NCBI RefSeq assembly: GCF_000318095.2
Contig: NZ_KB290718.1
Location: forward strand, 45,263 to 109,262
Reading direction: 5' to 3'
DNA from: Alloprevotella sp. oral taxon 473 str. F0040
Lineage (GTDB): Bacteria > Bacteroidota > Bacteroidia > Bacteroidales > Bacteroidaceae
Length of the DNA: 64,000 nucleotides
Positions 17,655 to 60,930 of the stretch are shown here, one piece after another. The notes below the pieces were generated by a model that was not told the origin of the DNA, ran no database searches, and worked only from the letters and a program-made list of their open reading frames with translations. The position numbers and the translations under genes were made by a program. Numbering within the stretch: the stretch's first letter is position 1; each line of letters begins with the position of its first letter.

Positions 17655-18432
17655 AAAGAGAGGATTATCTCTGAGTTATTTCAAAAAAACTCTGAGAGTC
17701 AAGAAATAATCGTGGAGAATTCCCAAAGTATCTCGGAGAAAATAGTAAACTTCTCAGAGATTATTTGATAGAAATCGGAGACGACTTTAGAAACAACTGA
17801 AGATGACGAGATGCTCTTAACGCCGTACATAAAAGACAGACGGATGAGACCTAACCGAAAGCTGTCACTCTCATTCTGTTAAAAAGACTTACAACTCTCT
17901 TCTCACGCGCACATGCGCGCACGCATTACAGCAATTTGTGCCTTTTTGCTTTCACATCCTTCACAAAACTCTTCATAACAAATTCATATTCAATCAGTAA
18001 CACTCCATTTTCGGATATATTTTAACATTATTGCTTCTTGGGGTGGGATTGGGCAGCTATCTCTACACAGTTGAAGTTCGGATTTGCTCCCTTGAATGAG
18101 GTCTCATTTTAAGCAAACAAATAGGCCATTGTGAAGGTTGTGAAAGCAAAATACTCAAATTCCCAGGGAAGGTGCGCACGTCGCGCGCATGCGTGAGAAA
18201 ATCGGTTGCCGAAAACACCCTAAAATCTCTATCACCTTACGACCACCGATGAAGTGTGCACTGACAATGATTTAGCTAGTTGTAAACAAAGGTTATCATC
18301 TAGTACCTATCACTCGACAACTAGCTATTTTGAAAAGTTCGCATATCATTTTAGGTACTATCCAAAGAAAATAGTGCAGATTTCTGCGGATTTTTCACTC
18401 TTTGCCTACATATCTACCCATATACTTATAGG
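17655..18432. repeat. Composite intergenic repeat, copy A
   Basis: Non-coding, in the convergent gap between the DUF3467 and methyltransferase genes. Parts in order: a cluster of TCTCGGAGA/TCTCAGAGA-type hairpins (about 17655-17785); a link; the left GC arm (from TCTCACGCG at 17901); the inverted arm pair (17942-17964 and 18131-18151) around 166 bp; the right GC arm (to 18198); and a distal block (18362-18432) that matches the reverse complement of 46741-46810 at about 48 of 56 aligned positions by eye and ends with ACCCATATACTTATAG, also present at 60909-60924. No open frame of note lies inside. Confidence 0.8.
17901..18198. repeat. Inverted-arm core of repeat copy A
   Basis: Left: TCTCACGCGCACATGCGCGC then TACAGCAATT then CTTTTTGCTTTCACATCC/TTCAC. 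Right: GTGAAGGTTGTGAAAGCAAA, then a 30-base link, then GCGCGCATGCGTGAGA. The enclosed spacer is 17965-18130 (166 bp). One inner-arm base (T at 17957 region) is not matched in the opposite arm. Confidence 0.85.
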
Positions 18433-46737: not shown

Positions 46738-47420
46738 CCTCACTTATATAGGGATAGATATAAGGGCAAAGAGTGAAAAATACGAAGAAAACTGCACTTT
46801 TTTCTTTGCGCTACCACATTTATGCAATTTACACATTACAAAATAGAGATTTGAAGTAGTGTAAAGGTAATCTGCTAAAGTACTAAGTACCTAATAGAAT
46901 TCAGACTCTTCAACTTGGGTACTTGGGATGGCAAGAAATGGGGAAGCATAACAACAAAGTTTCCTCGTACACGCGCGCGCATTCCCTGCGATTTTATGCA
47001 TTTTGCTTTCACAACCTTCACCAAGCTAGGTAGCGTTTCCTAAAACTGCGGTGTTTTTAGGGCTACACAACTCATCATTTTTAGGGTAGCACATTGCAAA
47101 ATTATCTTCTATATGAAGATTCATAACTAAACACTGTTCCTAATACCCTAGTACACTCCTTATATTCAACATGCTACAATGATTTCTGTGAAGGTTGTGA
47201 AAGCAAAAAGTGCAAAAATTGCTGTAGTGCGCGCGTACGCGCGCACGCGAGAGCGACGGAATATTGAAAGATACACACAAGAAAAGAAAACTTTAAGTTT
47301 GCCTACAGCTTGCTCGGAGAAGACAAAGAAAAAGTCGGAGATGATGATCAATCTCTCCGACTTTCTTCCCACTAAATCGGAGAGATTCTCTATCAACTCC
47401 GACATAATCTTTCACGCTCT
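46738..47420. repeat. Composite intergenic repeat, copy B (inverted relative to copy A)
   Basis: In the 46735-47549 gap between the convergent pflA and HhH genes. From left: the distal block (46741-46810, reverse complement of 18362-18432); a link with TAAGTACCTAATAG that recalls the TAGGTACTA of copy A; the GC arm (46970-46981); inner arm 47001-47021; 166-bp spacer; inner arm 47188-47210; GC arm to 47253; and hairpins AGTCGGAGA/TCTCCGACT (47333-47341 with 47354-47362) plus further TCGGAGA units to about 47403. No gene is encoded. The remaining 47421-47549 shows nothing recognisable. Confidence 0.8.
46970..47253. repeat. Inverted-arm core of repeat copy B
   Basis: Left: CACGCGCGCGCATTCCCTGC, a link, and TTTTGCTTTCACAACC/TTCAC ending at 47021. 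Right: GTGAAGGTTGTGAAAGCAAA from 47188, a link with AATTGCTGTAG, then GCGCGCGTACGCGCGCACGC ending near 47253. Inner arms are perfectly complementary over 21 bp. The spacer is 47022-47187 (166 bp). Confidence 0.87.
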
Positions 47421-47549
47421 AACATGATATGAACCGCTTCACTAAATCTCTCCCTAAACAGAATTATTTCTTTGGGGTAACCAATCGGTGGGCATTTCTA
47501 CTACTACCTGTGGTCCCTTGCTTCATCAGAAAAGTTAAGTGGCCATGAC

Positions 47550-49610
47550 TCAAAAACGATAACGCACCCTAAGCCCCAATCGCAAGGAATAGTCAGAGGA
47601 TTCTTCAACTGCCGCAGCGTTAGAGGCATGCGGACGATTCCAACGATGCATCATGGCTATGCGAGTGGACAGAGACCACGCTCGAGAGGGATTCCAGTTC
47701 ACCACAGCGACTCCCGAACAACCTGTGCCATAAAAAACAGGAAAAGCTCCCGTACCAGGTAGCTGGGGCTGGTAGGTATATAGGCGAGTGTCGAAACTAT
47801 CGGTGGAGAAGAGATTCAGAGCCCCCGAAACCTCCCAAGGAGAAGAGGGAGCATAGCGTAGACGTAGAGAAGCCATGGCTCCATACTGCTGCTTTCCCCG
47901 CAGCTGTTGCTTATTCATAGCTACATCTAAGCTGGTTTGGCACATCCAGGCTCCTGAAGTACGCCGAACGCTCAGGCGCAGCGACTGACGTGCCACCCAC
48001 TGCAACCATGGCGCGTGCTGAGGGATGGTCTGTTGCTGCGACGTGAGACGATAGCGCAGCGACCACTGCACTGCACGATAAGGAACGTAGGTGATGAGTG
48101 ATTGGGCCGCGACACCCGACGAAGGGGCAGCTGCTCGCCATGTGGGCAAGGGATGATGATAGACATGAACAAAACTTTGCCAATGCAGTTTGCGCCAGCG
48201 CGAGGTTTCGTAACCCAGGAGTGCCCCCATCTCATTTTGCACCTTCGTGCCCCGCTGGAAGGTACGTGCCATCGGTGCGATGTTACGACCACTCAAGTGG
48301 CGAAGCTGAAGCAGAAGAATGTCGGATGAGGAAAGTTGATAGCGCAGAAAACTGGCGAAGGCTGTTCCTCCAGAAAGATTCACCGTGCCTTCACCTTGCA
48401 CGCTCCAATGGCGGGCATAGTGAGCAAAGTCTACACTCACTCCCAAGGCATCACTCCCTACCATAGGAGCAGGCACACCGCGCTTGGTTGGACTTGACGG
48501 GAAGGGACGAGAAAAGTGATTGCCTAAAAAGCCTATACCCCACTCTGTTTGGACATTTTTCCAAGCACCGTGCGCTCCGAAGAGGAAATGACCTAAGGTG
48601 GCACGATGTGAGAGTTCAAGACGAGAGCGATGCAGGCCATTTGAATAGACAGACTTCACCTCACCATCTTGAAAACTGGCATCTAAGGTGCGATAACTCG
48701 CAAAGGCTGTCCATTGCCAACGACCTTGTTGCTGTTGCCAGGCTGCTCCGCGCAAATAATGCGCCTCATCGGTGGAGGTGTTGGGGGTGATGCGCGTGAG
48801 ATGTCGAGGAAGACTTAAAAAATAGGGTTGTACGAAAGTGCCGAAACGATGACCGATGAGGAGACCTTGGGCAAACTGGGCATGATAATCACCCAAAATG
48901 AGTTGGCGTTGCTTCTTAAGGTTGTGCTTTTCGACGAAAAAGGAGGCATGATCGAAAGGTACATTACGATAGGCCGCTAGCGGTTCTCCAATGTCGTGAT
49001 CCAGGGTGAGCCCTGCTCTCCATGATTGGTGCGACTGCACGCGATATCGCAAGGTGTTGCTCCAAGGGAGTCCGAGAAAACGGTGTTTCTCATCGACTGG
49101 ATGCTGAGAATTTCCACCAAAGAATGGCGAACTAGGAAGGGGCAATTGTGCGCGATATTCGAGACTATGACGAGCTGAGATCCACTGATGCCGAAAATCA
49201 CTAGGGGATTGGAGGGTGTCGCCCGCTTCGACAAAAAGGCTGAGCCACTTGAGTTGCTGCGCTTCCAAACCATGCACCATCATGAGATCGGACGGAGAGG
49301 AGAAAGCACGCAATCGACTGCGATAGGCGAGCAAAGAATCGACCTGAGAAGCAGAAAGCAAGGAAAGTTCGAGGAGTTGTTGACGAGTGGCGATGTTAAG
49401 ATTCAATGGATGTTGATACAGATTTTCTAAATAATCAAGAGTCGTGCCTCCACGATCTATGGGGGAGGGGCTATCATCATCAACTTCTCGGCTCTGAAGA
49501 TACTCTTCCACAAAATCATCCCAGGAGATGAGGGGCTTTCCGCGTACGATAGTCTGTGCAGGAAGTAGAAGTGTACACCAAAACCCTAGGATAAGAAGGA
49601 GGTTTCTCAT
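47550..49610 (-). CDS. Helix-hairpin-helix domain outer-membrane beta-barrel protein
   Basis: A 686-residue exported protein. The start at 49610 (MRNLLLILGFWCTLLLPAQ) gives a clean signal peptide; the in-frame extension to 49721 does not. Residues about 60-140 resemble paired helix-hairpin-helix motifs (LNLNIATRQQLLELSLLSAS; FSSPSDLMMVHGLEAQQL), as in ComEA-like proteins. The remaining about 480 residues show alternating aromatic beta strands ending in aromatic Phe (RVRYRF), typical of an outer-membrane barrel. The family is common in Bacteroidetes but its function is unknown; DNA handling at the surface is a possibility. It is followed by no clear terminator. Confidence 0.72.
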   Translation of the reverse strand: MRNLLLILGFWCTLLLPAQTIVRGKPLISWDDFVEEYLQSREVDDDSPSPIDRGGTTLDYLENLYQHPLNLNIATRQQLLELSLLSASQVDSLLAYRSRLRAFSSPSDLMMVHGLEAQQLKWLSLFVEAGDTLQSPSDFRHQWISARHSLEYRAQLPLPSSPFFGGNSQHPVDEKHRFLGLPWSNTLRYRVQSHQSWRAGLTLDHDIGEPLAAYRNVPFDHASFFVEKHNLKKQRQLILGDYHAQFAQGLLIGHRFGTFVQPYFLSLPRHLTRITPNTSTDEAHYLRGAAWQQQQGRWQWTAFASYRTLDASFQDGEVKSVYSNGLHRSRLELSHRATLGHFLFGAHGAWKNVQTEWGIGFLGNHFSRPFPSSPTKRGVPAPMVGSDALGVSVDFAHYARHWSVQGEGTVNLSGGTAFASFLRYQLSSSDILLLQLRHLSGRNIAPMARTFQRGTKVQNEMGALLGYETSRWRKLHWQSFVHVYHHPLPTWRAAAPSSGVAAQSLITYVPYRAVQWSLRYRLTSQQQTIPQHAPWLQWVARQSLRLSVRRTSGAWMCQTSLDVAMNKQQLRGKQQYGAMASLRLRYAPSSPWEVSGALNLFSTDSFDTRLYTYQPQLPGTGAFPVFYGTGCSGVAVVNWNPSRAWSLSTRIAMMHRWNRPHASNAAAVEESSDYSLRLGLRVRYRF

Positions 49611-49689
49611 AGTCAGATCGGTTGTTGTAAGGGAGAAGGTATTAGGAGTAAGGTGAAGGTTCGATTGATGCGGATCAGAAGAAGAGGAG

Positions 49690-49746
49690 GAAACAAAGCA
49701 GCGCATCCTTCTTTCGCGCAATAAGGAGCGAAAAAGAAGGATGCGC
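49690..49746 (-). terminator. Terminator of the small beta-barrel gene
   Basis: CGCATCCTTCTTT-CGC (49702-49717) pairs with GCG-AAAAAGAAGGATGCG (49728-49745) with a two-base bulge; leftwards a T-containing stretch follows. It lies about 30 bases past the stop. Confidence 0.65.
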
Positions 49747-49775
49747 GAAGCAATGTTTAGGAGGTTGGTAAGAGC

Positions 49776-50309
49776 TTAGAATTTAGCTACGATACCGAAA
49801 GAGAGATTAGCTTGTGAGTAGTTGCCTGAAAGCACTTGTTGGCGTACCTCAGCATTCACAAATACATTTTCAGAAAGGAAGTATTGCACACCACCACCGA
49901 AGTTGGCTCCTAATGAACCTGTGTGGGTGTAGACTGTGGTATTCTCAAGGGTGCCGAGCTTCAAACCCCAGTTGGAGAAAGAGAAACCTGCGAGGGGATA
50001 CACGGCAAACTTAGGAGAAAGACGGAATACGTAGTGAGCATTGGCATTGATGTCCCAAGCGTACAAACCGTTGGAGGGGAAATAGTAGCCGAAAGAGCCT
50101 TCAAGACGTACGTTGTTCGTCACAAAGTGCTGGTACTTGGCCCCGATACCGATGTTGTTGTTGTAGCTACCAAAGAGGAGGTTTAAACCTAAGGCTTTGG
50201 TATTGGTGTTGTCGTTAGCTACAATGAAAGCCTGTGCTTGGGGTTGGGTTTGTGCTTGGCTTTGCACCGCAAAAGCAAGCATAGCCGCAAAGAAAAGAGT
50301 TTTTTTCAT
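49776..50309 (-). CDS. Small outer-membrane beta-barrel protein (opacity/porin-like)
   Basis: A 177-residue protein with a signal peptide (1-20, MKKTLFFAAMLAFAVQSQAQ) and a barrel of about eight alternating strands (IGIGAKYQHFVTNNVRLEGS; NANAHYVFRLSPKFAVYPLA), ending with F. Such proteins are abundant outer-membrane components in Bacteroidetes. The start at 50309 is preferred over an in-frame ATG 14 codons upstream because of the signal peptide. A TATTTTTG element (50385-50378) could be its promoter, but no clear upstream element accompanies it. Confidence 0.8.
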   Translation of the reverse strand: MKKTLFFAAMLAFAVQSQAQTQPQAQAFIVANDNTNTKALGLNLLFGSYNNNIGIGAKYQHFVTNNVRLEGSFGYYFPSNGLYAWDINANAHYVFRLSPKFAVYPLAGFSFSNWGLKLGTLENTTVYTHTGSLGANFGGGVQYFLSENVFVNAEVRQQVLSGNYSQANLSFGIVAKF

Positions 50310-50444
50310 CTGATGATTGTGTTGGATGATGCGAAATAAAAGAGCACCCACCTCAACAATAAAGGAAGTGGATGCTGCAAAAATAGTAAATCTTTTTGAA
50401 TATCACGTGACTCTGCACTGATAATCTGCCTTTCTGCTGAAGAA

Positions 50445-51062
50445 TTAGCCGATTTCGATGATGCGCGCTCCATCGGGAAGAGGGAAATGTGCATCGTGAC
50501 TAACGACGACAATGGCACGATGCTGGTGCTGCTCCAAGAGGGTTTCGTAGAGTTCATGACGTGTTGCGGTGTCGAGGTGGGTATCTGGCTCATCGAGAAG
50601 CAACAACTGCGGAGAACTTACAAGTGCACGAGCCAAAAGAGTGCGTTGCCACTGTCCTCCACTGAGGGAGTCGATGGGACGTTCTGCAAGTTCTGACAGA
50701 TTGAGCATCTCGAGAGTGGCCATCGTAGTAGCGCGCTCTGATACTCCAAAAGGTTTCCACCACGGCATGGAGCATTGCAGGCCGCTACGCACGGTCTGGA
50801 ACACCGTGATGGGAAATTGACGATCGATGCTGCGATGCTGGGGCAAATAGCCAACAGTGAGTCCTTCTGCTCGTTGGATGGTGCCACTTGTGGGAGTAAG
50901 AAGCCCGCTGATGACTTTTAGTAGAGAGGTTTTGCCACCGCCATTTTTGCCACGCAACACGATGAAATCTCGCTCTTCGATGGAGAGCGAGAAGTGCGAG
51001 AGAATGTCGCGACGATGATCGTAGGAGAAACTGACGTCGCTAAGGGTGATGAGGGTGGACAT
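50445..51062 (-). CDS. znuC: Zinc/manganese-type ABC transporter ATPase
   Basis: A 205-residue ATPase. Walker A RGKNGGGKTS (38-45 core), signature LSGGQ (133-137), Walker B LLLLDEPD (to 160) and the switch H189 are present. Its ATG overlaps the stop of the binding-protein gene (TAATG), so the two are translationally coupled. That pairing suggests metal import, most likely zinc. No permease gene lies downstream, which is unusual. The start MSTLITLSDV is chosen because of the overlap and family fit. Confidence 0.85.
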   Translation of the reverse strand: MSTLITLSDVSFSYDHRRDILSHFSLSIEERDFIVLRGKNGGGKTSLLKVISGLLTPTSGTIQRAEGLTVGYLPQHRSIDRQFPITVFQTVRSGLQCSMPWWKPFGVSERATTMATLEMLNLSELAERPIDSLSGGQWQRTLLARALVSSPQLLLLDEPDTHLDTATRHELYETLLEQHQHRAIVVVSHDAHFPLPDGARIIEIG

Positions 51063-51934
51063 TACTGGGGAGACTGTACGAGGGTTCGGGCGATGTGGAG
51101 CATTTGCTTGTCCCATGCCACAGAAAGTGGGGCGATGCTGACGATGCGGGCTCCAGTGCTCTCGGCGATGCGACGTGCGGCACGGCCTGCATGCTCTTCT
51201 TGGATGAAAACGACTTGCACATTGTTGTGCTTGGCTTGGAGGATAAGCTGCTGCATACGATCGGCAGAGGGTTCACGACCGTCTTGTTCTACTGCTATCT
51301 GCTGAAGTCCATAGTCACGAGCGAAGTATCCCAAAGCGGGATGGTAGATCATGAAGGTGCGATGGACAAGGGGGCGGAGGATTTGGCGGATTTCTCCATC
51401 GAGCGAATCTATGTGCTGTACCAAACTATCATGGCGTTGTTGATAAAAAGCGGCATTGGCACTGTCTACTTGACAAAGTCCACGGAGCACATTGCGAGCG
51501 ATTTGCTTGCCTGATGTGGTGGAAAGCCAAGTGTGAAGATCGATGCCTTCTATATGTTGGTGCTGCTGATCGTGAACATGATTATCTTCGAGCAATACAA
51601 TGCTATCGGAGCTATTAACCACCAGAAGATTGGGAGCATTCTCGGTGAGTTTCCTCAAGCGTTCTTGTTCAAAACCTAAGGTGCCAACACAGAAATAAGC
51701 GCGGCTGTCGGTGGTTTGCACCACTTGTTGAGGGGTGAGTTCGTAGGTTTCTGGGCTTGCTCCTGCGGGAACGAGCGTATTGACCTGAAAACGATCACCT
51801 CCAATGGCTTCCACAAAGTAGCGCAGGGGTTCGATACTCACTGTCACGATGGGACGATGATCGACTACATCGCGACATGATCCCAAGAAGAAGGGAAGCA
51901 ATAAGAACAAGATAAACTGAAATCTTGAAAGCAT
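51062..51934 (-). CDS. znuA: Zinc ABC transporter substrate-binding lipoprotein
   Basis: A 290-residue lipoprotein; FLGSC gives a lipobox with acylated C20. The cluster A-I fold is recognised by VTVSIEPLRYFVEAIGGDRF and VPAGASPETYELTPQQV, with a His/Asp-rich loop HVHDQQHQHIEGIDLHTW (119-136) of the kind found in zinc-specific ZnuA proteins. It captures metal in the periplasm for the coupled ATPase. Confidence 0.88.
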   Translation of the reverse strand: MLSRFQFILFLLLPFFLGSCRDVVDHRPIVTVSIEPLRYFVEAIGGDRFQVNTLVPAGASPETYELTPQQVVQTTDSRAYFCVGTLGFEQERLRKLTENAPNLLVVNSSDSIVLLEDNHVHDQQHQHIEGIDLHTWLSTTSGKQIARNVLRGLCQVDSANAAFYQQRHDSLVQHIDSLDGEIRQILRPLVHRTFMIYHPALGYFARDYGLQQIAVEQDGREPSADRMQQLILQAKHNNVQVVFIQEEHAGRAARRIAESTGARIVSIAPLSVAWDKQMLHIARTLVQSPQ

Positions 51935-51952
51935 AAGTCAAGTTATGGGAAA

Positions 51953-52414
51953 TTACAAAAAGGATTGCACCTCTTGTGTAGCTAGCACCACAAAGCAATA
52001 GCGAACGAACTTGCCTATGATGAGCATAAGAACTGTGAGTGGAAGGTTGACTCTCAAATATCCCAAAGCAATTGTGATAAGCGAACCTAGGATGGGTATC
52101 CAAGAAAGCAGCCCTCCCCAAAAGCCAAATTTATGCACATAGCGTTTTCCTCGTTCTAAAGCTTGGGGATTGACACGAAGATAACGCTCTATCATGTCTT
52201 CACGTCCTAAACGTCCGATGCCATAGTTGGTGGCTGATCCTAAGGTGTTGCCAATGGTGCCGACCACAAGGAGTTCTAAAGGTGCTACACCGGCAGCGAC
52301 TAAAGCGGATAATACGACTTCAGAAGCCAAAGGAAGGATGCTGCCTGCAAAAAAAGCGGCGATAAACATGCCCCAGAGGCCGTGTTCTATTAAAAATTGG
52401 ATAATAACGTCCAT
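51953..52414 (-). CDS. DedA/YqaA-family membrane protein
   Basis: A 153-residue integral membrane protein of the SNARE-associated/DedA-like YqaA group: GLWGMFIAAFFAGSILPLAS with the conserved Glu, VVGTIGNTLGSATNYGIGRL, and a C-terminal span. Relatives affect membrane lipid transport and envelope homeostasis. It overlaps the upstream membrane-protein gene by 25 bases and ends 19 bases before znuA, so it is probably in one operon with them. Confidence 0.82.
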   Translation of the reverse strand: MDVIIQFLIEHGLWGMFIAAFFAGSILPLASEVVLSALVAAGVAPLELLVVGTIGNTLGSATNYGIGRLGREDMIERYLRVNPQALERGKRYVHKFGFWGGLLSWIPILGSLITIALGYLRVNLPLTVLMLIIGKFVRYCFVVLATQEVQSFL

Positions 52415-53340
52415 AAATCAAAGTAGTTGGCTACGCCAAGAAGAAGGAAGAGCAACATCCAAAGGATGAACCAGGCATTCATGCCGCGGCCTTTGGCAAG
52501 CGCAAAGTAGTGACCAATAAAAGGTACGAGCGTTACAAGACATAAAGGCAGCGTGGTGGCAAAAAACTGCGGGAGGGCAAAATGGAGAAAGGTAAGGGGA
52601 AGCACTTGTAGCAGGAGAAGATAATGATATTGTCGCGTGCGAATCTTGTCGTTATAAGCAGTTCTCAAGAAATGCACGACACTCACTATGCTGATGAGGA
52701 AGACTAGCCCACCACCCATCCACTGCGAGGGTGGAACGTGAGTAAACTGCATCGGTTGCCAGAGCCTTTCTAGTTGCCACAAACTGATATAAGGCTGCAA
52801 CACCTCGCGTGCGAAAAGGAAAACTGGGAGCAGGATCCAATAGGGAAGCGACAATCCCAGAAGAGCTGCCATAGCCGACTTGCCCGTGAGCGCACGAAGA
52901 TGACGTTCAGAAGAGAAGAGGAGGAACGGCACTAGGAGCAGCAGCGGAGGAAAGGCTATACTTCCTACACCGATGAGAAAGAAAGCATGAAAAAAATAGC
53001 CTTGGGGTGCATAAACTCCATAAGTGCGAAAGAGCAGGAAGTAGGCACCAAGCAAACAACAGGCAGGGAAAAGATGCCAACCTAGGAGATGCAGCTGCGG
53101 AAAAATGAGAAAAAGAAAAAGGAAAGTGAGACTATTCATGCGAGAACGCACGCGAATGAGCTGGTATTGCGTGTTCCAAGCCATCATGAAATAAGTCATC
53201 ACTCCAACCAAAGCCCATCCTCCCCACAACGCTAGGTTCTGGATGTCAGGCATCATCCAGATGATGGAAGCAAGTATCACCAATATGGGTAGTGAAATCA
53301 TGCTTTCAGAAACGCGGTTGCGAAAGGGTTGTGAACGCAT
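52390..53340 (-). CDS. Polytopic membrane protein of unknown function
   Basis: A 316-residue protein with eight to ten hydrophobic segments (for example ISLPILVILASIIWMM, MNSLTFLFLFLIFPQL, GVGSIAFPPLLLLVPFLLFS, LLLLGVANYFDLW). No family could be named; no catalytic motif stands out. The start overlaps nothing upstream, and its end overlaps the DedA-like gene by 25 bases. Position between purD and the DedA-like gene is the only functional hint. Confidence 0.75.
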   Translation of the reverse strand: MRSQPFRNRVSESMISLPILVILASIIWMMPDIQNLALWGGWALVGVMTYFMMAWNTQYQLIRVRSRMNSLTFLFLFLIFPQLHLLGWHLFPACCLLGAYFLLFRTYGVYAPQGYFFHAFFLIGVGSIAFPPLLLLVPFLLFSSERHLRALTGKSAMAALLGLSLPYWILLPVFLFAREVLQPYISLWQLERLWQPMQFTHVPPSQWMGGGLVFLISIVSVVHFLRTAYNDKIRTRQYHYLLLLQVLPLTFLHFALPQFFATTLPLCLVTLVPFIGHYFALAKGRGMNAWFILWMLLFLLLGVANYFDLWTLLSNF

Positions 53341-53508
53341 GGGGAGGATGGCTGTGGAGTTGTCAATAGATGATTAAGACATTTTAGGGACATCATGAAT
53401 GTTGTCAAAAATCATCACAAATCATAGGGTCATATCGCAGAACGCTTCACTCGTTCTCGTAGAAGATTTCGAGATTCCTAATGAAGATCTCACACGATGA
53501 AAACAGAT

Positions 53509-54774
53509 TTACAAATCAAATCCGATGTCTCGACGGAAATACTTCTTCTCAAACTGGATTTGTTCGGCACCACGCATTGATTTTTCTAGTGCTTCTTCAC
53601 GAGTGACTCCATAAGAGCTCACGGCGATGACACGACCTCCGGCAGTGACGAGCTGTCCATCCTTGAGTGTCGTTCCAGCATGGAAGACTACACTACCCTC
53701 TACTTCAGCGTTTGAGATGGAGAACCCTTTGTCGTAAGCCTCTGGATAGCCTCCGCTCACACACATCACGCAGACAGCTGCGCGTTCATCAAATGTGATG
53801 GTGCGCTGATCGAGGTTACCTTCCGCCACACCTTCGAGAAGATCTACCAAATCGCTCTTGATACGAAGCATCACACTTTCGGTCTCGGGATCCCCCATAC
53901 GGCAGTTGTATTCAATCACCTTAGGTTGCCCATCGCAGTTGATGAGTCCGAAGAAGATGAAGCCTTTGTACACAATGCCTTCAGAGCGCAAACCTTCTAC
54001 AGTGGGACGAATAATTTCGCGCTCCACTCGGGCCATCCACTCTGGCGTAGCGAAGGGAACGGGAGTCACTGAACCCATGCCACCGGTATTGAGTCCAGTA
54101 TCGCCTTCTCCGATGCGCTTGTAGTCTTTTGCCTCGGGGAGGATCTTATAATGCTCTCCGTCAGTGAGCACAAAGACAGAACACTCGATGCCTGACAAGA
54201 ACTCTTCTATCACCACGCGACTAGAAGCATTGCCAAACTGACCTCCCAGCATTTCTCTCAATGCTTTTTGCGCTTCTTCGAGAGTTGGGAGAATGAGCAC
54301 CCCCTTTCCTGCGCAGAGACCATCGGCTTTCAGTACATAGGGAGCGGAGAGGGTTGCCAAAAACTCGCACCCTTCTTCCACCTGCGTGCCATCGAAAGTT
54401 TGATAAGCTGCGGTGGGAATGCCGTGACGTTGCATGAAGGCTTTGGCAAAGTCTTTAGAACCTTCCAGCACTGCGCCTGCCTTTGAAGGCCCAATGACTG
54501 GGATATGCGCTGTAGCCGAGCGAGAGAGGAAATCATCGTAGATTCCCTTCACCAATGGATCTTCGGGGCCAACAACGACCATGTCTACTTGCTGCTTCAC
54601 GACGAAGTCTGCAAGCGCATCAAAGTCGGTGGCAGCGATGTCCACGTTTTCGCCTACACTGGACGTGCCAGCATTGCCTGGTGCTATGAAAAGTTGCTCA
54701 ACTTTAGGACTTTGGGCGATTTTCCAGGCCAGTGCGTGTTCGCGACCGCCAGAACCAAGGAGAAGAATCTTCAT
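53509..54774 (-). CDS. purD: Phosphoribosylamine-glycine ligase
   Basis: A 421-residue ATP-grasp enzyme of de novo purine synthesis joining phosphoribosylamine and glycine. [20 protein letters not shown], the ATP-grasp segment [18 protein letters not shown] and the metal-binding [16 protein letters not shown] are all intact and the length is standard. It follows the S41 protease gene by 55 bases in the same direction. Confidence 0.97.
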
Positions 54775-54829
54775 GAGAGGAGGGGGTGTTGTGAGATGAA
54801 TGTATAATTAGAAGTCAAAAACTCTACAT

Positions 54830-56503
54830 TTATTTGCGGAGCAACTTGTGATAGCGTTCTTTATCGAGCAGTATCTCTGTGGAGAGCTGCAACTCTTTAT
54901 CGTTGCGGATCTTGTAAGCATAAGCTCCTTCATGTCCATAGCGCGAGGAAACGATAGCATATTCCAAGAGTTCGCGCACCTCTTTCTGCCAGCGGCGCAA
55001 GTCTCCTGCCACATTGGGAGCGAGTTTTGTGGCTAAAGCTGTCATTTCAGTCTGTATGCTATCGCTATATCCTTCATAGTCAGCCCACTTCTTCAGATAA
55101 TCCAGCATACGCTTCGTCTGGGTGTGGTAGGTGAAGGAACTTTTTTCCATAAAGGAGAGGAAATCTTGGAAATCCACATCAGAGATATGGAACGAATCTG
55201 CGGGTGCCAACTCATGATGGGTGTTGAGATACTTCACAGTGTAATCAAAGAACTGTTCAGACAGAGCGAGTTCTTCCAACATATCGGGCAATGAGTCAGG
55301 CTCCATCACCACATCGGGCGTGATGCCACCGCCATCTTTCACCAGGCGTCCGTTGCTCGTCTTAAATACTTTGCAAAGAGAGTCGGGCAAATGCTTCGGT
55401 TGTCCATCCGCTCCGCGATTTTTGAAATCATAAGCCTGCACACAACGCCCCGAAGGAATATAATACTTCGCCGTCGTCAGTTTGAGCATCGTGTTGTAAG
55501 GCAATTCTCGTTGCGATTGCACAAGCCCCTTACCATAAGTGCGCTGTCCCACCACAACTGCACGATCATAGTCTTGCAGCGTGCCAGAAGTAATTTCTGC
55601 TGCCGACGCTGTGCTATAATTCACCAGCACCACCATCGGGATATCGTCATCGAGAGGAGCTTGTTTTGTTTTGAATATAGCATTCTGTTCGGGATCCTTT
55701 CCGCGCACCTCTAGCACCTTTTTCCCTTTGGGAATGAAGAGATTCACCACTTGCACAGCTTCATTCATCAATCCACCACCATTACCGCGCAGATCTAGCA
55801 CCAGACGTTGTGCTCCCTTCGCTTTGAGTTGTTCAATAGCTTGGCGCAAATCGTGAGTAGTATCATCACGATAACCCGTCATCACCACATACCCCACATG
55901 GTTAGGTAAGAGTCTTGCAAAAGGCACCGAAGGCTGCTTGATCACCTGTCGCTTCAATCGAAAGCGCAACAACTTCTCATGCATCGGACGCTTCACCGTA
56001 AGGGTAAACGAGGTCCCAGCTTCTCCCCGCAATTGGTTGGAGATTTTGCTAGAATAGTCTGCTTTCGCTTGTTTTCCACAGACACCCACATACTTGTCAT
56101 TGATTTTCATGATGATGTCTCCCGTGCGCACCCCAGCAGCTTGCGCCGGCATGCCCATATACGGCCCGTCAAACACACAGCGGTCGCTCCCTTTGTGATA
56201 GCGAATGGGCGATCCTATACCCGCATACTTGCCAGTGGTCAGTGTCTTTAGTTCATCCGTCCGTGAGGCTTTGTAAAACTCAGTGTAAGGGTCCAAACGA
56301 TTGAGCATATAACGGATAGCATCACCCGTCACCTTCTCAGCATCAAGTGTATCAACGTAATTTAGTTCTAGTTCTTCATATAGCGCATTGAAAATATCCA
56401 AAGCCTTGGTGGTTTTGAAATTATCAGACTCCTGTGCTTGGAGCGTTATCTGCGCTCCCACACCGAAGAGAAATGCTATAAAGAGGAAAAATCTTTTTAT
56501 CAT
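54830..56503 (-). CDS. S41 carboxyl-terminal processing protease with PDZ domain
   Basis: A 557-residue exported protease. A signal peptide (1-23, MIKRFFLFIAFLFGVGAQIT) leads to an N-terminal helical part, a PDZ domain (about 95-180; GMPAQAAGVRTGDIIMKIND) and the S41 catalytic core with S300 in STASAAEI and K325 in TYGKGLVQ, 25 residues apart as in CtpB. C-terminal helical region from about 430. It degrades or trims periplasmic proteins. The start at 56503 is chosen for the signal peptide. A TAACTTTG element (56581-56574) may be its promoter. Confidence 0.92.
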   Translation of the reverse strand: MIKRFFLFIAFLFGVGAQITLQAQESDNFKTTKALDIFNALYEELELNYVDTLDAEKVTGDAIRYMLNRLDPYTEFYKASRTDELKTLTTGKYAGIGSPIRYHKGSDRCVFDGPYMGMPAQAAGVRTGDIIMKINDKYVGVCGKQAKADYSSKISNQLRGEAGTSFTLTVKRPMHEKLLRFRLKRQVIKQPSVPFARLLPNHVGYVVMTGYRDDTTHDLRQAIEQLKAKGAQRLVLDLRGNGGGLMNEAVQVVNLFIPKGKKVLEVRGKDPEQNAIFKTKQAPLDDDIPMVVLVNYSTASAAEITSGTLQDYDRAVVVGQRTYGKGLVQSQRELPYNTMLKLTTAKYYIPSGRCVQAYDFKNRGADGQPKHLPDSLCKVFKTSNGRLVKDGGGITPDVVMEPDSLPDMLEELALSEQFFDYTVKYLNTHHELAPADSFHISDVDFQDFLSFMEKSSFTYHTQTKRMLDYLKKWADYEGYSDSIQTEMTALATKLAPNVAGDLRRWQKEVRELLEYAIVSSRYGHEGAYAYKIRNDKELQLSTEILLDKERYHKLLRK

Positions 56504-56660
56504 GTATGTCATAAGCTCTACATCCTCGTCCACATCATCGTGTCCTTGCACACATACGTGCAGGTGGGTACTACAAAGTTACGGCCTTTTTGAGAAATAG
56601 CTGTGCACAGAGGCTTTGAAATTCATCAAAACGCATCTCTATCATCTGTACTTGCTACTT

Positions 56661-57632
56661 CTATGCTCTGTTTTGGCGCAATTCTACCCACGTTTCGGCA
56701 GAGAGTTGAGTTCCCATCACTTGAATCACAGCAGCAGCGCAACGCGCGCCCATCTGTAAACACTCTTCCAGCGAAGCTCCTTGTGCATGCTCATAAAGGA
56801 ATCCTCCAGCAAAGAAATCGCCCGCTCCAGTGGTGTCTTCCACTTGCTTCACTCGCTCAGCAGCGACCCTCACCTTCTTGTCGCCCGAAACAGCCACAGC
56901 CCCTTCGGCTCCACATTTCACCACGGCAATTGGACAGATACGCGCCAACCACTCTGCGGCAGCTTCACCCATCGTCCCTGTCATGGCTTGCGCTTCTTCT
57001 TCATTAGCAAAAACGATGTCTATCTTAGGTAACAATTCCGCGAAGAATGCACGCTCTTCTTTCACAATGTTCCAAGATGCCAAATCCAAACACACCTTCA
57101 CGCCATTGCGTTGTGCTAATTCCACCGCGCGCAAGACAAGTCCATGATTTTGCACCAAATAGCCTTCAATAAACATATAGTCAGCCACAGCAAAGTCCAC
57201 TTCGTGCAAGTCCTCAGCACTCACGGTTGCCGCTGCCCCAAGATAGGTGGCAAAGGTGCGACGACCATCGGGGAGAATAAAAGTAGTCGCCACCCCAGTC
57301 GGTATGTCTTCTGAAATGGTAGTGAGCGGTTTCACTCCAGCTTGCTCACACGATTTGGCGTAAAACTTTCCATGCTCATCCCTTCCAGTCCGACCTATAA
57401 AACTAGCATCGCCGCCTAGTGCCGCCACACAATGCACCGCATTGCTCGCCGAACCTCCTGTGCGACACTCGAATGGCACATTTTTGAGACGTTCCACGAT
57501 TTTTTTTCTTCGTTCAGCATCTATCAGCGTCATGCCGTCTATCGAAATCCCTAATTCTCTGATTATATTCTCGTTATCTATCTTATAGAGGGCATCTACC
57601 AGGGCATTCCCAACGCCTAAAATTTTCTTCAT
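56661..57632 (-). CDS. PfkB-family carbohydrate kinase (adenosine/ribokinase-like)
   Basis: A 323-residue kinase starting MKKILGVGNALVDALYKID. The PfkB signatures GGSASNAVHCVAALGG and DTTGAGDFFAGGFLYEH are present, with catalytic D272. The N-terminal GNALVDA and overall layout fit the adenosine kinase-like subgroup; the exact sugar or nucleoside is not certain. The 33 extra codons to an upstream ATG at 57731 cover the promoter region (TATCTTTG at 57666-57659) and are rejected. Confidence 0.87.
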   Translation of the reverse strand: MKKILGVGNALVDALYKIDNENIIRELGISIDGMTLIDAERRKKIVERLKNVPFECRTGGSASNAVHCVAALGGDASFIGRTGRDEHGKFYAKSCEQAGVKPLTTISEDIPTGVATTFILPDGRRTFATYLGAAATVSAEDLHEVDFAVADYMFIEGYLVQNHGLVLRAVELAQRNGVKVCLDLASWNIVKEERAFFAELLPKIDIVFANEEEAQAMTGTMGEAAAEWLARICPIAVVKCGAEGAVAVSGDKKVRVAAERVKQVEDTTGAGDFFAGGFLYEHAQGASLEECLQMGARCAAAVIQVMGTQLSAETWVELRQNRA

Positions 57633-57776
57633 GTAATTTTTTCTTGAAATTTTCTCTGCAAAGATAGTGCTTAATTCGAAATAAAGTACTACTTTTGCAC
57701 TGCAAACGAGGAACAAGGACGTACTTTTCAAGGTTTTCCACCAACAAAAGTTCTTCTTTCTCCTACAAAAAGACCT

Positions 57777-57854
57777 GCTTCAGTAGCTCAGTTGGTTATA
57801 GAGCACCTCTGACTGTTAATCAGGGGGTCGTTGGTTCAAGCCCATCCTGAAGCG
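57777..57854 (+). tRNA. tRNA-Asn (anticodon GTT), copy 1, enlarged D-loop
   Basis: Acceptor GCTTCAG/CTGAAGC, anticodon arm TCTGA-CTGTTAA-TCAGG and T-loop TTCAAGC. It differs from copy 2 by two extra bases in the D-loop (GGTTATAGAGC against GGTTAGAGC). No CCA is encoded. A TACTTTTG element at 57690-57697 could be its promoter. It may be functional or decaying. Confidence 0.82.
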
Positions 57855-57893
57855 CAACTACCAAGTCTGCGGTAGTAAAATAAAAAGACACCT

Positions 57894-57969
57894 GCTTCAG
57901 TAGCTCAGTTGGTTAGAGCACCTCTGACTGTTAATCAGGGGGTCGTTGGTTCAAGCCCATCCTGAAGCG
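57894..57969 (+). tRNA. tRNA-Asn (anticodon GTT), copy 2
   Basis: A complete cloverleaf of 76 bases with a normal D-loop; anticodon loop CTGTTAA. Its anticodon-loop to 3' part is the start of a long direct repeat found again at 59835, the pattern left by integration at a tRNA 3' end. Confidence 0.93.
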
Positions 57970-58212
57970 CAACGCGCAACATTCGAAAGAGTGTTGCGCG
58001 TTTTGTTCTCTATAATCCCCAAGATACAACAGTATCAAGATAAGTTTAGCGTGCTCGCCTAATAAGTCCTTACGGATTATACACTTGCCACTCAAGAGGC
58101 TACAGAATACCTCCGTCAGTTCTTTACTCAGAGATGAAACCTTAGCCTTCTCAATCCAGTTTCAACAAACCCTCTCTCTTTTCGGCTAGATAGTTGGCAA
58201 AGATGGTGCAGA
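57928..58212 (+). repeat. Direct repeat 1: tRNA-Asn 3' half plus downstream 240 bp (attachment-site scar)
   Basis: From the anticodon loop of tRNA-Asn copy 2 (CTGTTAATCAGGGGG) through the terminator to AGATGGTGCAGA. The same block, about 90 percent alike by eye, is at 59835-60122. The repeat encloses about 1.6 kb of accessory DNA. Confidence 0.85.
57972..58008 (+). terminator. Terminator of the tRNA-Asn genes
   Basis: ACGCGCAACA (57972-57981) and TGTTGCGCGT (57992-58001) form a perfect 10-bp stem followed by TTTGTTCT. An identical copy occurs at 59879-59915 inside the second direct repeat. Confidence 0.85.
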
Positions 58213-58267
58213 GGGTGGTTTTACCGACACCGCCCTTTTGATTGGCCAAGGAAATTATTGTAGACAT
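58151..58267 (-). pseudogene. Truncated ParA/TraA-type ATPase remnant
   Basis: An ATG at 58267 opens a 38-codon frame, MSTIISLANQKGGVGKTTLC followed by TIFANYLAEK, then RE and an early stop (58151-58153). It keeps the deviant Walker A KGGVGKTT of ParA/MinD ATPases but nothing downstream. Its N-terminal sequence resembles the ParA-like TraA proteins of Bacteroides conjugative elements. It is probably a relic of an integrated conjugative element beside the tRNA-Asn attachment site. Confidence 0.8.
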
Positions 58268-58269
58268 TG

Positions 58270-58685
58270 CTATTCTGAGAGCAAAAGAGGATTTTCCAAA
58301 GGCTTCACCAAATCAACGGCTGGATTCCCGATTGTTACTGTAAGAGAGTTAAGTAGTAGGTCGGCCAAATTAACTCGCTTGGATAGAATCTGGATATTAT
58401 TATAATATCCTTTGACTTGAACAAAGCAATCCAAAGTCTTACCTGACATGTTCATATAGGATATATTGCAGCCATGAGCTGTAGGAAGAGTGGTAATAGT
58501 GATTGGACTATTAAATATATCTGGTCTAGAAATCCCTAATACTTTGACAGAAACCCCAGCAAACTCTCTTTGAGGTTGGTCTTCGCAGTTGCTACGATAG
58601 AATCTGCATATTGTGCAAAAGCAGGAGAGCATTTTTGAGCATCGTACAATGCAGTAACATCAAGGGCGGAAGATAAGGCGTCCAC
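58270..58685 (-). pseudogene. Frameshifted remnant of an unknown gene
   Basis: Two overlapping minus-strand frames both look protein-like: 58685-58536 gives 49 codons (VDALSSALDVTALYDAQKCS and so on, ending in a stop) and 58632-58270 gives 120 codons whose second half (FAGVSVKVLGISRPDIFNSP; MSGKTLDCFVQVKGYYNNIQ) continues the sequence in another frame. A one-frame shift near 58565-58600 would join them. It starts 3 bases from the ParA stub. No family was recognised. It may instead be a short real gene beginning near 58632. Confidence 0.45.
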
Positions 58686-58895
58686 CTTTGTTTCGAATTT
58701 TAGTTTTCCTCCAGATTAAACTCTGGAACTTCGGCGCAAAAGTAAATAAGTCTCCTCATACAGCCAAATCCTGTGACTTACTATTGCCTCGCAATAGACC
58801 AAACGACTCCCCTCATAAACACAAGGAAAGTCGCTGCTCGTAAATAAAGCTTATATAAACACCTATATAAATCAAATAGAGCTTTAAAAGCTTTT

Positions 58896-58912
58896 CGCGT
58901 GCGCGCGTGAGA
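58896..58912. repeat. Solo GC arm resembling the outer arm of the composite repeat
   Basis: CGCGTGCGCGCGTGAGA matches the outer-arm end (GCGCGC...GAGA) of copies A-C, but no GTGAAGGTTGTG inner arm is nearby. It is followed by a hairpin CCTTTTGT/ACAAAAGG (58918-58939) that could be a terminator for the PH-domain gene. Confidence 0.5.
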
Positions 58913-58949
58913 ATCTTCCTTTTGTTTTTAGACAAAAGGAAAACTAAGG

Positions 58950-59507
58950 CTAGAGATAGGTGTACTCCGTGTATCCTTTATCGCTTTTGCAACGCTCAGC
59001 ACGCTGTCGGATGACAGCGAGTAGAGGGAAGTCGGTTGGTATTCCTTTTACCTCTATTCGCAGGTAACCTTTATCTGAACAGGTTACCAGAATCGTCTTT
59101 AGCCCTAGCAAGCGCTGAAGCCAGCTTTGCTGCTCATAGTATCCTGTAACTCTGCGAAGTTCAAAATAGACAGTAGATGCAGAGAATACACCGCGCTTTT
59201 GACTGACTATTTCTGCTCCTATTATCCAGCTTGAAGAATAAAGATAGAACAAGCGGTAGAGGGTCAAAGGTATAAGTACAAAAAGCGGAAGTAAGCAGAA
59301 AGCAAAAGCGAGGGGCATGTCATGGCGATAGCACAGCAGCAAAAGCAAGCCGATAGGTAGAAACCGCCATACGAAACCATACAAAACACAGAGATACTGT
59401 TTGAGAGAAGGACGAATTGCAATATCAGATAATACGTCATTCTGAGCAGGCTTGGTTTCAGTGGCTTGCTGTATCGTGATATTTGAATAGGTAGTTGTCA
59501 TCATCAT
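58950..59507 (-). CDS. Membrane protein with bacterial PH (YdbS-like) domain
   Basis: A 185-residue protein. Two close membrane segments (about 37-62 and 66-90: FVWRFLPIGLLLLLCYR; FAFCLLPLFVLIPLTLYRLF) are followed by a bPH2-type domain (about 95-165; GAEIVSQKRGVFSASTVYFE, then LLGLKTILVTCSDKGYLRIE). Such proteins are thought to organise membrane complexes; function is unknown. It lies between the direct repeats with a good promoter, so it may be cargo of the integrated element. Confidence 0.75.
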   Translation of the reverse strand: MMMTTTYSNITIQQATETKPAQNDVLSDIAIRPSLKQYLCVLYGFVWRFLPIGLLLLLCYRHDMPLAFAFCLLPLFVLIPLTLYRLFYLYSSSWIIGAEIVSQKRGVFSASTVYFELRRVTGYYEQQSWLQRLLGLKTILVTCSDKGYLRIEVKGIPTDFPLLAVIRQRAERCKSDKGYTEYTYL

Positions 59508-59578
59508 TGAGCATAGTGACTAGAGATATAAGGAATTGATTAAATCTGAGTCAATTGGGAAAACATTTCTGTATATTG

Positions 59579-59609
59579 CAAATATACTAACTTCTTTAGT
59601 GAGGAACAA
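59579..59609 (-). promoter_or_regulatory. Promoter of the PH-domain gene
   Basis: On the minus strand TTG (59609-59607), 20 bases, then TATATTTG (59586-59579), 72 bases before the start codon. The rest of 59610-59834 shows no credible gene. Confidence 0.65.
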
Positions 59610-59834
59610 TCCATATTGTGTTTTTCTTAGTTTGTATTTGACAATTTCCCTAAATGGGATCAAGAAATCCATTTTAACGCAATCATCCTTTTCATTGTTC
59701 CTTGAATTTTCAGCAAAAAAGAATTCGTTTTTCCCGTATCACCTTCTGCAAAGGAAATACTGTTCATACTTCCCCTTTAGCTATTTTTTGAGTTTCATGA
59801 AATCAAGCTTCAATGAAACATAAAGGCGCTAAAT

Positions 59835-60122
59835 CTGTTAATCAGGGGGTCGTTGGTTCAAGCTCATCCTGAAGCGCAACGCGCAACATTCGAAAGAGTG
59901 TTGCGCGTTTTGTTCTCTATAATCCCCAAGATACAACAGTATCAAGATAAGTTTAGCGTGCTCGCCTAATAAGTCCTTACGGATTATACACTTGCCACTC
60001 AAAAGGCAGCAGAACACATCTGTCAGTCCTTTATTTCTCAGAGATGAAACTTTAGCCTTTTCAATCCAGTTTCAACAAACTCTCTCTCTTTTCGGCTAGA
60101 TAGTTGGCAAAGATGGTACAGA
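59835..60122 (+). repeat. Direct repeat 2: orphan tRNA-Asn 3' half and downstream block
   Basis: Begins CTGTTAATCAGGGGG in the anticodon loop, so there is no 5' half and no functional tRNA, and carries the same terminator and downstream sequence as 57928-58212 up to AGATGGTACAGA. It has a 3-base insertion near 60036 and scattered substitutions. This is the far attachment-site copy. Downstream, 60123-60328 holds nothing recognisable. Confidence 0.85.
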
Positions 60123-60328
60123 CGATGTTTGATCGATACTAACTTGTTGGCTAGAAAAGCGGACAAGAGTTGCTGAACAACACAGTTCAACTACTTTGCT
60201 TCGTACAAATTCTCTACCCTACGGATGTCCTTGTTGAAATTTCCTAGAGATAGATCTAGTACAGATAGATTGGACTCTACCTCCAGAAACCTCCTAGATT
60301 TCTGCCAATCATCTCCAACACTTTCATA

Positions 60329-60930
60329 AAAAACTCCGAGATTCTTCAGCAAATGTCGGAGTTTTTCTTTCTTCCATCAGAGAAAATTTTGCAATGCTCC
60401 TTTGGTTCTGAAACAGTGCGTAAGAAAGAGACCGAAAGCCTACTCTCACGCGCGCGCGTAACAGGAGTTTTTATCTTTTTGCATTCACAACCTTCACAAA
60501 ATTTTCCATAAACAAATGATACACAACGAATCAGGAAGGTAACAGGAACGATGTTCATAAAGAAAAAATAGAAGTGCATCGAAAATAAACGAAAGGACAA
60601 CACAAAATAAAGAAAAACAACCAGCAGAAAAAGCATGCCATTTATGAAAACTCTAAGCAATGCTGTGAAGGTTGTGAAAGCAAAAAGATAGGAATTGCTG
60701 TGATGCGCGCGCGTACGCGAGAAAACTCAAACACAACATCACCCCCCTTTGGGATGCGACTTTCATCGCAAAACATCGACCTTAAAGCAATCAACCTTCA
60801 AAGCCATATCCTAAGCACTCTCAGCCCTCCAAAATCCTAAAAAGAGTAACAAATTGGAATTATCCAACATCTTTTAAACTCATAACCCTCTGAAATTAAC
60901 ATCTAGCAACCCATATACTTATAGAGGCCT
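60329..60930. repeat. Composite intergenic repeat, copy C
   Basis: Parts in the order of copy A: the hairpin ACTCCGA/TCGGAGT (60333-60339 with 60356-60362, flanked by A and T runs); GC arm from TCTCACGCG at 60444; inner arm 60475-60497; 167-bp spacer; inner arm 60665-60687; GC arm to about 60722; and the distal end ACCCATATACTTATAG (60909-60924). The interval between tRNA-Leu and direct repeat 2 holds nothing else. Confidence 0.78.
60444..60722. repeat. Inverted-arm core of repeat copy C
   Basis: Left: TCTCACGCGCGCGCGTAACA, a link, then CTTTTTGCATTCACAACC/TTCAC ending at 60497. Right: GTGAAGGTTGTGAAAGCAAA from 60665, a link with AATTGCTGTGA, then TGCGCGCGCGTACGCGAGA. One inner-arm mismatch (GCATTC on the left against the complement of GAAAGC). 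The spacer is 60498-60664 (167 bp). Confidence 0.85.

Follow-up and report, generated by a model that had tools for sequence, protein, structure and literature searches.

REPINs, which go with the RAYT transposase, consist of two inverted ends at a preferred distance of 71 or 110 bp (Bertels and Rainey 2011, PMC3116915), and the BrickBuilt MITEs of Porphyromonas gingivalis (PMC4596501) form an intergenic family in the Bacteroidales. Dispersed sites of another kind are bound in nucleoid occlusion by Noc (about 70 NBS) and SlmA (24-52 SBS) and are under-represented in the terminus region (PMC4726725); a limited literature search found no known nucleoid-occlusion or macrodomain DNA sites for Bacteroidota. 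Here we describe a family of paired inverted sites with three copies, A, B and C, in a window of 64,000 nt, the whole stretch analyzed, from Alloprevotella sp. oral taxon 473 str. F0040 (contig NZ_KB290718.1; positions are those of the window). We tentatively read each copy as a two-site chromosomal DNA element bridged by a putative protein, to which we give a probability of roughly 45%. The positions of the three copies and their inner distances of 166, 166 and 167 bp, as reported in an earlier note, were verified directly in the sequence, and so were the single arm mismatches of copies A and C, whose right arms are unchanged. The features were read from the sequence, together with a family-wide test for the left tract of copy A and a module comparison for its spacer:

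17904..17926, no strand: copy A, left alternating purine-pyrimidine tract, 23 nt
17948..17964, minus strand: copy A, left arm core GCTTTCACATCCTTCAC, one mismatch
17965..18130, plus strand: copy A, 166-bp spacer
17965-18027: copy A, class I module, inside the spacer, with TTTCGGATATATTTTAACA at 18009-18027
18131..18147, plus strand: copy A, right arm core GTGAAGGTTGTGAAAGC
18172..18195, no strand: copy A, right alternating tract, one break
46966..46982, no strand: copy B, left alternating tract
47005..47021, minus strand: copy B, left arm core
47022..47187, minus strand: copy B, 166-bp spacer; class II module adjoining the right arm, motif at 47129-47145
47188..47204, plus strand: copy B, right arm core
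47227..47249, no strand: copy B, right alternating tract, 23 nt
60447..60460, no strand: copy C, left alternating tract
60481..60497, minus strand: copy C, left arm core GCATTCACAACCTTCAC, one mismatch
60498..60664, plus strand: copy C, 167-bp spacer; class II module adjoining the left arm, motif at 60540-60556
60665..60681, plus strand: copy C, right arm core
60703..60719, no strand: copy C, right alternating tract

A 19-mer arm pattern, allowing up to three mismatches, has 47+46 matches in the 2.55-Mb genome of this strain (24 contigs) versus 1+2 for the reversed control, so the three copies are not a chance occurrence. The stretches around each match yield 44 clean pairs and two with a decayed arm, about 46 in all, and the sister genome LT608321.1 ('Prevotellaceae bacterium Marseille-P2826'; G033) holds 43 arm pairs in the sequence examined, with no true unpaired arm among these 43 elements. 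Runs of 20 N, probably scaffold joins at repeats, fall in or beside arms of our strain's contigs (e.g. L013, L022, L025, L026, L028, L032, L038), making some of its arms uncertain. Across 84,980 species genomes the arm pattern has, beyond the two sister species, only two single matches in unrelated bacteria; the family was found nowhere else. By a test gene the two species are about 88% identical, while every other genome of the genus reaches at most 75%. A 400-kb sample of one congener (G004) contains no analogous elements, and another (G062) carries a different paired repeat of continuous spacer length whose neighbors lie 0.8-2.6 kb apart. A phage or plasmid origin was rejected, as viral contigs contain no arm and plasmid and phage records show no similarity, and the sole literature match to the arm sequence is an unrelated nematode paper.

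Several other repeats were seen along the way. The G062 inverted pair (L201-L214) has arm CTAATGGGGGCGACGCGTCYCGCGTCGGG and a 66-111 bp spacer, with more than 12 copies in 280 kb, some less than 3 kb apart, and in G004 (L181-L200) short inverted pairs have a 9-bp minisatellite, GAAGTTAAC/GAAGTTATC, close by in intergenic DNA. Many intergenic regions in 1.2 Mb of the sister (L101-L160) and in our strain's loci L009-L054 hold arrays of TTAGACG, a 7-bp unit, with none in the window and none in G004; TTAGACGTTAGA occurs 112 times in 1.2 Mb of the sister and 30 times in 371 kb of our strain's loci. TCGGAGA/TCTCCGA units cluster just outside copies A (17733-17781) and B (47314-47383), with single matches at 20266, 24034, 35508, 39045 and 54107; they recur within long spacers elsewhere in the family and resemble an intergenic minisatellite with a unit of 21-22 bp.

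From outside to inside, each element is ordered as a CG-rich alternating purine-pyrimidine tract, a variable linker, the 22-bp core TTTTTGCTTTCACAACCTTCAC with its direct repeat TTCAC-AACC-TTCAC and, on the head side, a conserved module. Ten of 17 arm-core positions are invariant over 166 arms, and between orthologs the 22-bp core diverges by 1.9%, compared with 22.6% for the adjoining outside stretch and 15.4% for alignable spacers (p = 4e-49). The module, about 62 bp long, adjoins one arm, the head, at a fixed offset, with a second conserved motif 42-45 bp from the core. In class I (39 arms; copy A), which follows AGAttTCtnTgtAA....cT.......cAa....TtAC.......TTTCGGACAtatTTTAACA, 44-45 bp separate core and motif. 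The related class II motif TATTAGGAACGGTGTTC (21 arms; copies B and C) and class III motif TTATAACATCCTTTTAGA (11 arms) have almost the same offset, the class III copies being neighboring loci clustered next to the presumed origin. At up to three mismatches, module I does not occur outside elements in 1.2 Mb. Just outside the core, head arms read ACAGCAATTTT and tail arms CTTCCCTGGGATTTT, and the element therefore has a direction. In long spacers, TCGGAGA or TCGGACATTTT marks tandem units of 21-22 bp, which are absent from the interiors of copies A, B and C, and no element contains coding sequence.

The alternating tracts, most commonly 23 nt long, average 17.7 nt versus 6.1 nt in random sequence, and these elements contain 32 of all 33 CG-rich alternating tracts that reach at least 18 nt in 1.2 Mb. 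With the tract picked on one of the two sequences, orthologous tracts differ by 78 transitions and 6 transversions, and spacers by 221 and 205, respectively (ts/tv 13 vs 1.08, p = 7e-14). Alternation thus appears to be kept in the tracts despite sequence change, though mutation bias at CpG could yield the same pattern with no selection for alternation.

The earlier note had held the distance between arms to be fixed at 166-167 bp and had named a broad distance distribution as evidence against selection on it. Tabulated over all copies in both species, 165-168 bp is indeed the commonest class (33 of 87 copies), but the length is not universal and ranges from 95 to 652 bp, so that the distribution is in part as broad as that objection foresaw and a single distance of about 16 helical turns is not supported as stated. 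Pooled lengths fall into classes near 95, 114-119, 144, 155, 166.6 (33 copies), 178, 188 and 212 bp, followed by 250, 271, 292, 314, 336 bp and more; the longest reach 652 bp where the 21-22 bp minisatellite has expanded, and a rigid distance is thus not required everywhere. The 144/155/166/178/188 ladder and the 21-22 bp steps fit helical phasing, which is suggestive only: counting each length class a single time leaves a weak signal (P 0.006-0.49 by subset, with the best period at about 11.3-11.5), and the internal minisatellite accounts for the 21-22 bp steps. Likewise, the spacers are unconserved in that most interiors are unrelated, but this does not extend to the module of about 62 bp beside one arm or to the many orthologous spacers that are 80-95% identical.

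Selection on distance itself is borne out by the 35 loci that could be paired between the two species. In 23 ortholog pairs both spacers are shorter than 240 bp, and their lengths differ by 0-2 bp in 22 and by 21 bp in one, compared with a median length difference of 37 bp for unalignable outer intergenic stretches (MWU p = 4e-7). In 12 pairs spacer identity is near the level of shuffled sequence, yet length is kept within 2 bp in 11 of them (P = 1.5e-4 with partners shuffled), and rare, locus-specific lengths are kept as well (189/187, 179/179, 119/118, 154/155). Alignable spacers also have 3.5-fold fewer gaps per mismatch than the sequence outside (6 per 226 vs 69 per 732, p = 0.0013). Length agreement and suppressed indels, with sequence left free, indicate that distance is selected locus by locus, and the two-species comparison thus offers a way to tell selection on distance from selection on sequence. 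Not all equal lengths need reflect drift, however, and some may be due to sequence exchange among common-class copies: the module class of L049 differs from that of its ortholog, and L049 has a spacer in common with L053.

The complementary arms, together with the lack of an Rfam match, which leaves room for a new family, might suggest a structured RNA in which the two arms form a long stem. We consider this very improbable and largely refuted, as arm covariation tabulated over all copies in the two species reveals no compensatory change, with no compensated core change among the 44 + 43 elements, and as similarity between left and right arms is lower within an element than across elements (0.569 vs 0.601 in our strain, 0.595 vs 0.630 in the sister). 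The uncompensated arm changes thus favor DNA recognition over RNA pairing, as the earlier note had proposed from the mismatches in copies A and C. Invertons in Bacteroidales usually have inverted arms around about 170 bp, and the inverted arms, similar distance and asymmetric interior seen here would suit an invertible promoter flipped by a site-specific recombinase. That reading is hardly credible: spacer orientation relative to the flanks is constant at every ortholog with alignable flank and spacer, and the segment was not found in both orientations at any testable ortholog.

GC skew from sampled and tiled sister sequence, on which the origin position rests, places the origin at about 1.69 Mb and the terminus at about 0.33 Mb. 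Of the 43 sister elements, 35 fall in the half of the chromosome centered on the skew minimum, no further than a quarter genome from the origin (p = 4e-5; 34-37 with the origin moved by 50-90 kb). The minimum gap between sister elements, 11.5 kb, was never reached in 20,000 random draws from long intergenic regions (mean minimum gap about 2.4 kb); gaps in our strain have a minimum of 9.7 kb and a median of 20.6 kb, and since loci are shared the two distributions are not independent. Neighboring genes are convergent, divergent or codirectional and the head points either way, leaving no rule of gene orientation, and the sister element table shows no clear bias of head orientation relative to replication direction. 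The mixed orientations of genes and heads weigh against a promoter, attenuator or terminator cassette acting on neighboring genes, a reading to which the intergenic location, the asymmetric head module and the promoter activity reported for BrickBuilt elements (PMC4596501) lend some appeal; as gene distances are often 300-600 bp or more, and regular spacing and origin bias would go unexplained, we regard it as improbable.

At L047, L041 and L032 the sister lacks both the element and the surrounding intergenic DNA, and because some loci are thus empty, no single copy is indispensable; the whole intergenic region at these three empty sites is unalignable, which limits the check for target-site duplications. 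The segment between copies B and C (47205-60480), bounded by an element on either side, has the opposite orientation in the sister, and the elements therefore also recombine. Near the presumed origin, several rearrangement junctions separate 54-110 kb of our strain's contig C14 (L020-L022) from 1.67-1.74 Mb of the sister; they coincide with elements in our strain, and the sister has none there.

The main rival, ranked below the bridged two-site reading and in our judgment rather unlikely, is a non-autonomous MITE-like element whose transposase needs both ends at a suitable distance, whose insertion near an existing copy is discouraged by target immunity, as in Tn3, Mu and Tn7 relatives, and whose old copies drift between the ends. 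It would account for copy number, for some 45 dispersed intergenic copies with inverted ends and for presence or absence differing between species; target immunity would also yield a minimum spacing, G062 has a clearly MITE- or REP-like paired repeat, and certain loci have spacers in common (L049/L053, r1204345/r1215808, r1153509/r707532). However, we found no transposase-bearing parent with these ends: all arm pairs are 95-652 bp apart and none encloses a transposase, with the qualification that some arms are interrupted by gaps in our strain's assembly. In a single recent family the interiors should be shared, whereas here copies have the module and a few spacers in common and most interiors are unrelated; dead ends should decay like interiors, whereas the core is 8-fold more conserved. 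Shared interiors moreover occur mostly at loci already holding an element, pointing to exchange rather than insertion, and immunity does not explain the origin bias. The two readings could also both hold, for a mobile element later domesticated.

We return to the bridged two-site reading, for which the sequences show the anatomy, conservation, length constraint and distribution of the elements, while a protein, its bridging of the arms, Z-DNA and the chromosomal role are what we infer from them. The confinement of the family to two sister species, the empty loci, the long spacers and the weak helical phasing count against this reading. The putative protein would bind the arm core at both ends and bring the two inverted sites together, which would place the length between the arms, and hardly its sequence, under selection; one arm, the head, is followed by the second conserved motif, and the framing alternating tracts could flip to Z-DNA under negative supercoiling. 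A chromosome-scale role, such as domain boundary, anchoring, segregation or division timing, would fit better than regulation of single genes, as the roughly 45 copies are separated by no less than 9.7 kb and found mostly in the origin-proximal half and independent of neighboring gene direction. More doubtful still is the idea of an organizing system unlike matS, parS, Noc or SlmA sites, in which guarded inverted pairs with Z-DNA-forming frames might form small loops at least about 10 kb apart in the origin half and set supercoiling or segregation domains. Beyond the earlier note, the analysis adds the Z-DNA-like flanking tracts, the fixed-offset module, the separation of at least 9.7 kb and the crowding in the origin half. 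With about 45 natural two-site elements of guarded spacing in two comparable species, a single DNA bait could fish out the putative binding protein, and the purpose of regular placement along the chromosome could be tested.

How, then, does the family compare with the described systems? It resembles REPINs in its dispersed, intergenic, conserved inverted doublets at a preferred distance around a less conserved spacer. Nevertheless, REPIN/RAYT membership was ruled out: Y1_Tnp (PF01797) searches gave no match in either genome while controls did, and compensatory changes, common in REPINs (PMC3116915), are absent here, which removes the hairpin. The arm core, moreover, is not a REP palindrome, and chromosomal spacing is over-dispersed here and random in REPINs. 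With BrickBuilt (PMC4596501) the family shares intergenic location in Bacteroidales, tandem-unit length variation in part of the copies and a unit spanning roughly two helical turns (23 nt in BrickBuilt, 21-22 bp in this family). BrickBuilt was rejected, as its ends are GAGACCTTTGCA of IS5 type rather than TTTTTGCTTTCACAACCTTCAC, no insertion sequence with matching ends was seen, and the 166-bp class, copies A, B and C included, lacks the tandem units that every full BrickBuilt copy holds as 23-nt bricks. Noc and SlmA sites are likewise tens of dispersed short sites thinned toward the terminus, matching the 35 of 43 elements in the origin half. A Noc-type ParB site was rejected because each of the two genomes has a single ParB_N gene and hence no Noc-like ParB paralog, and Noc and SlmA sites are single palindromes, whereas each element here consists of two inverted sites at a guarded distance, flanked by alternating tracts.
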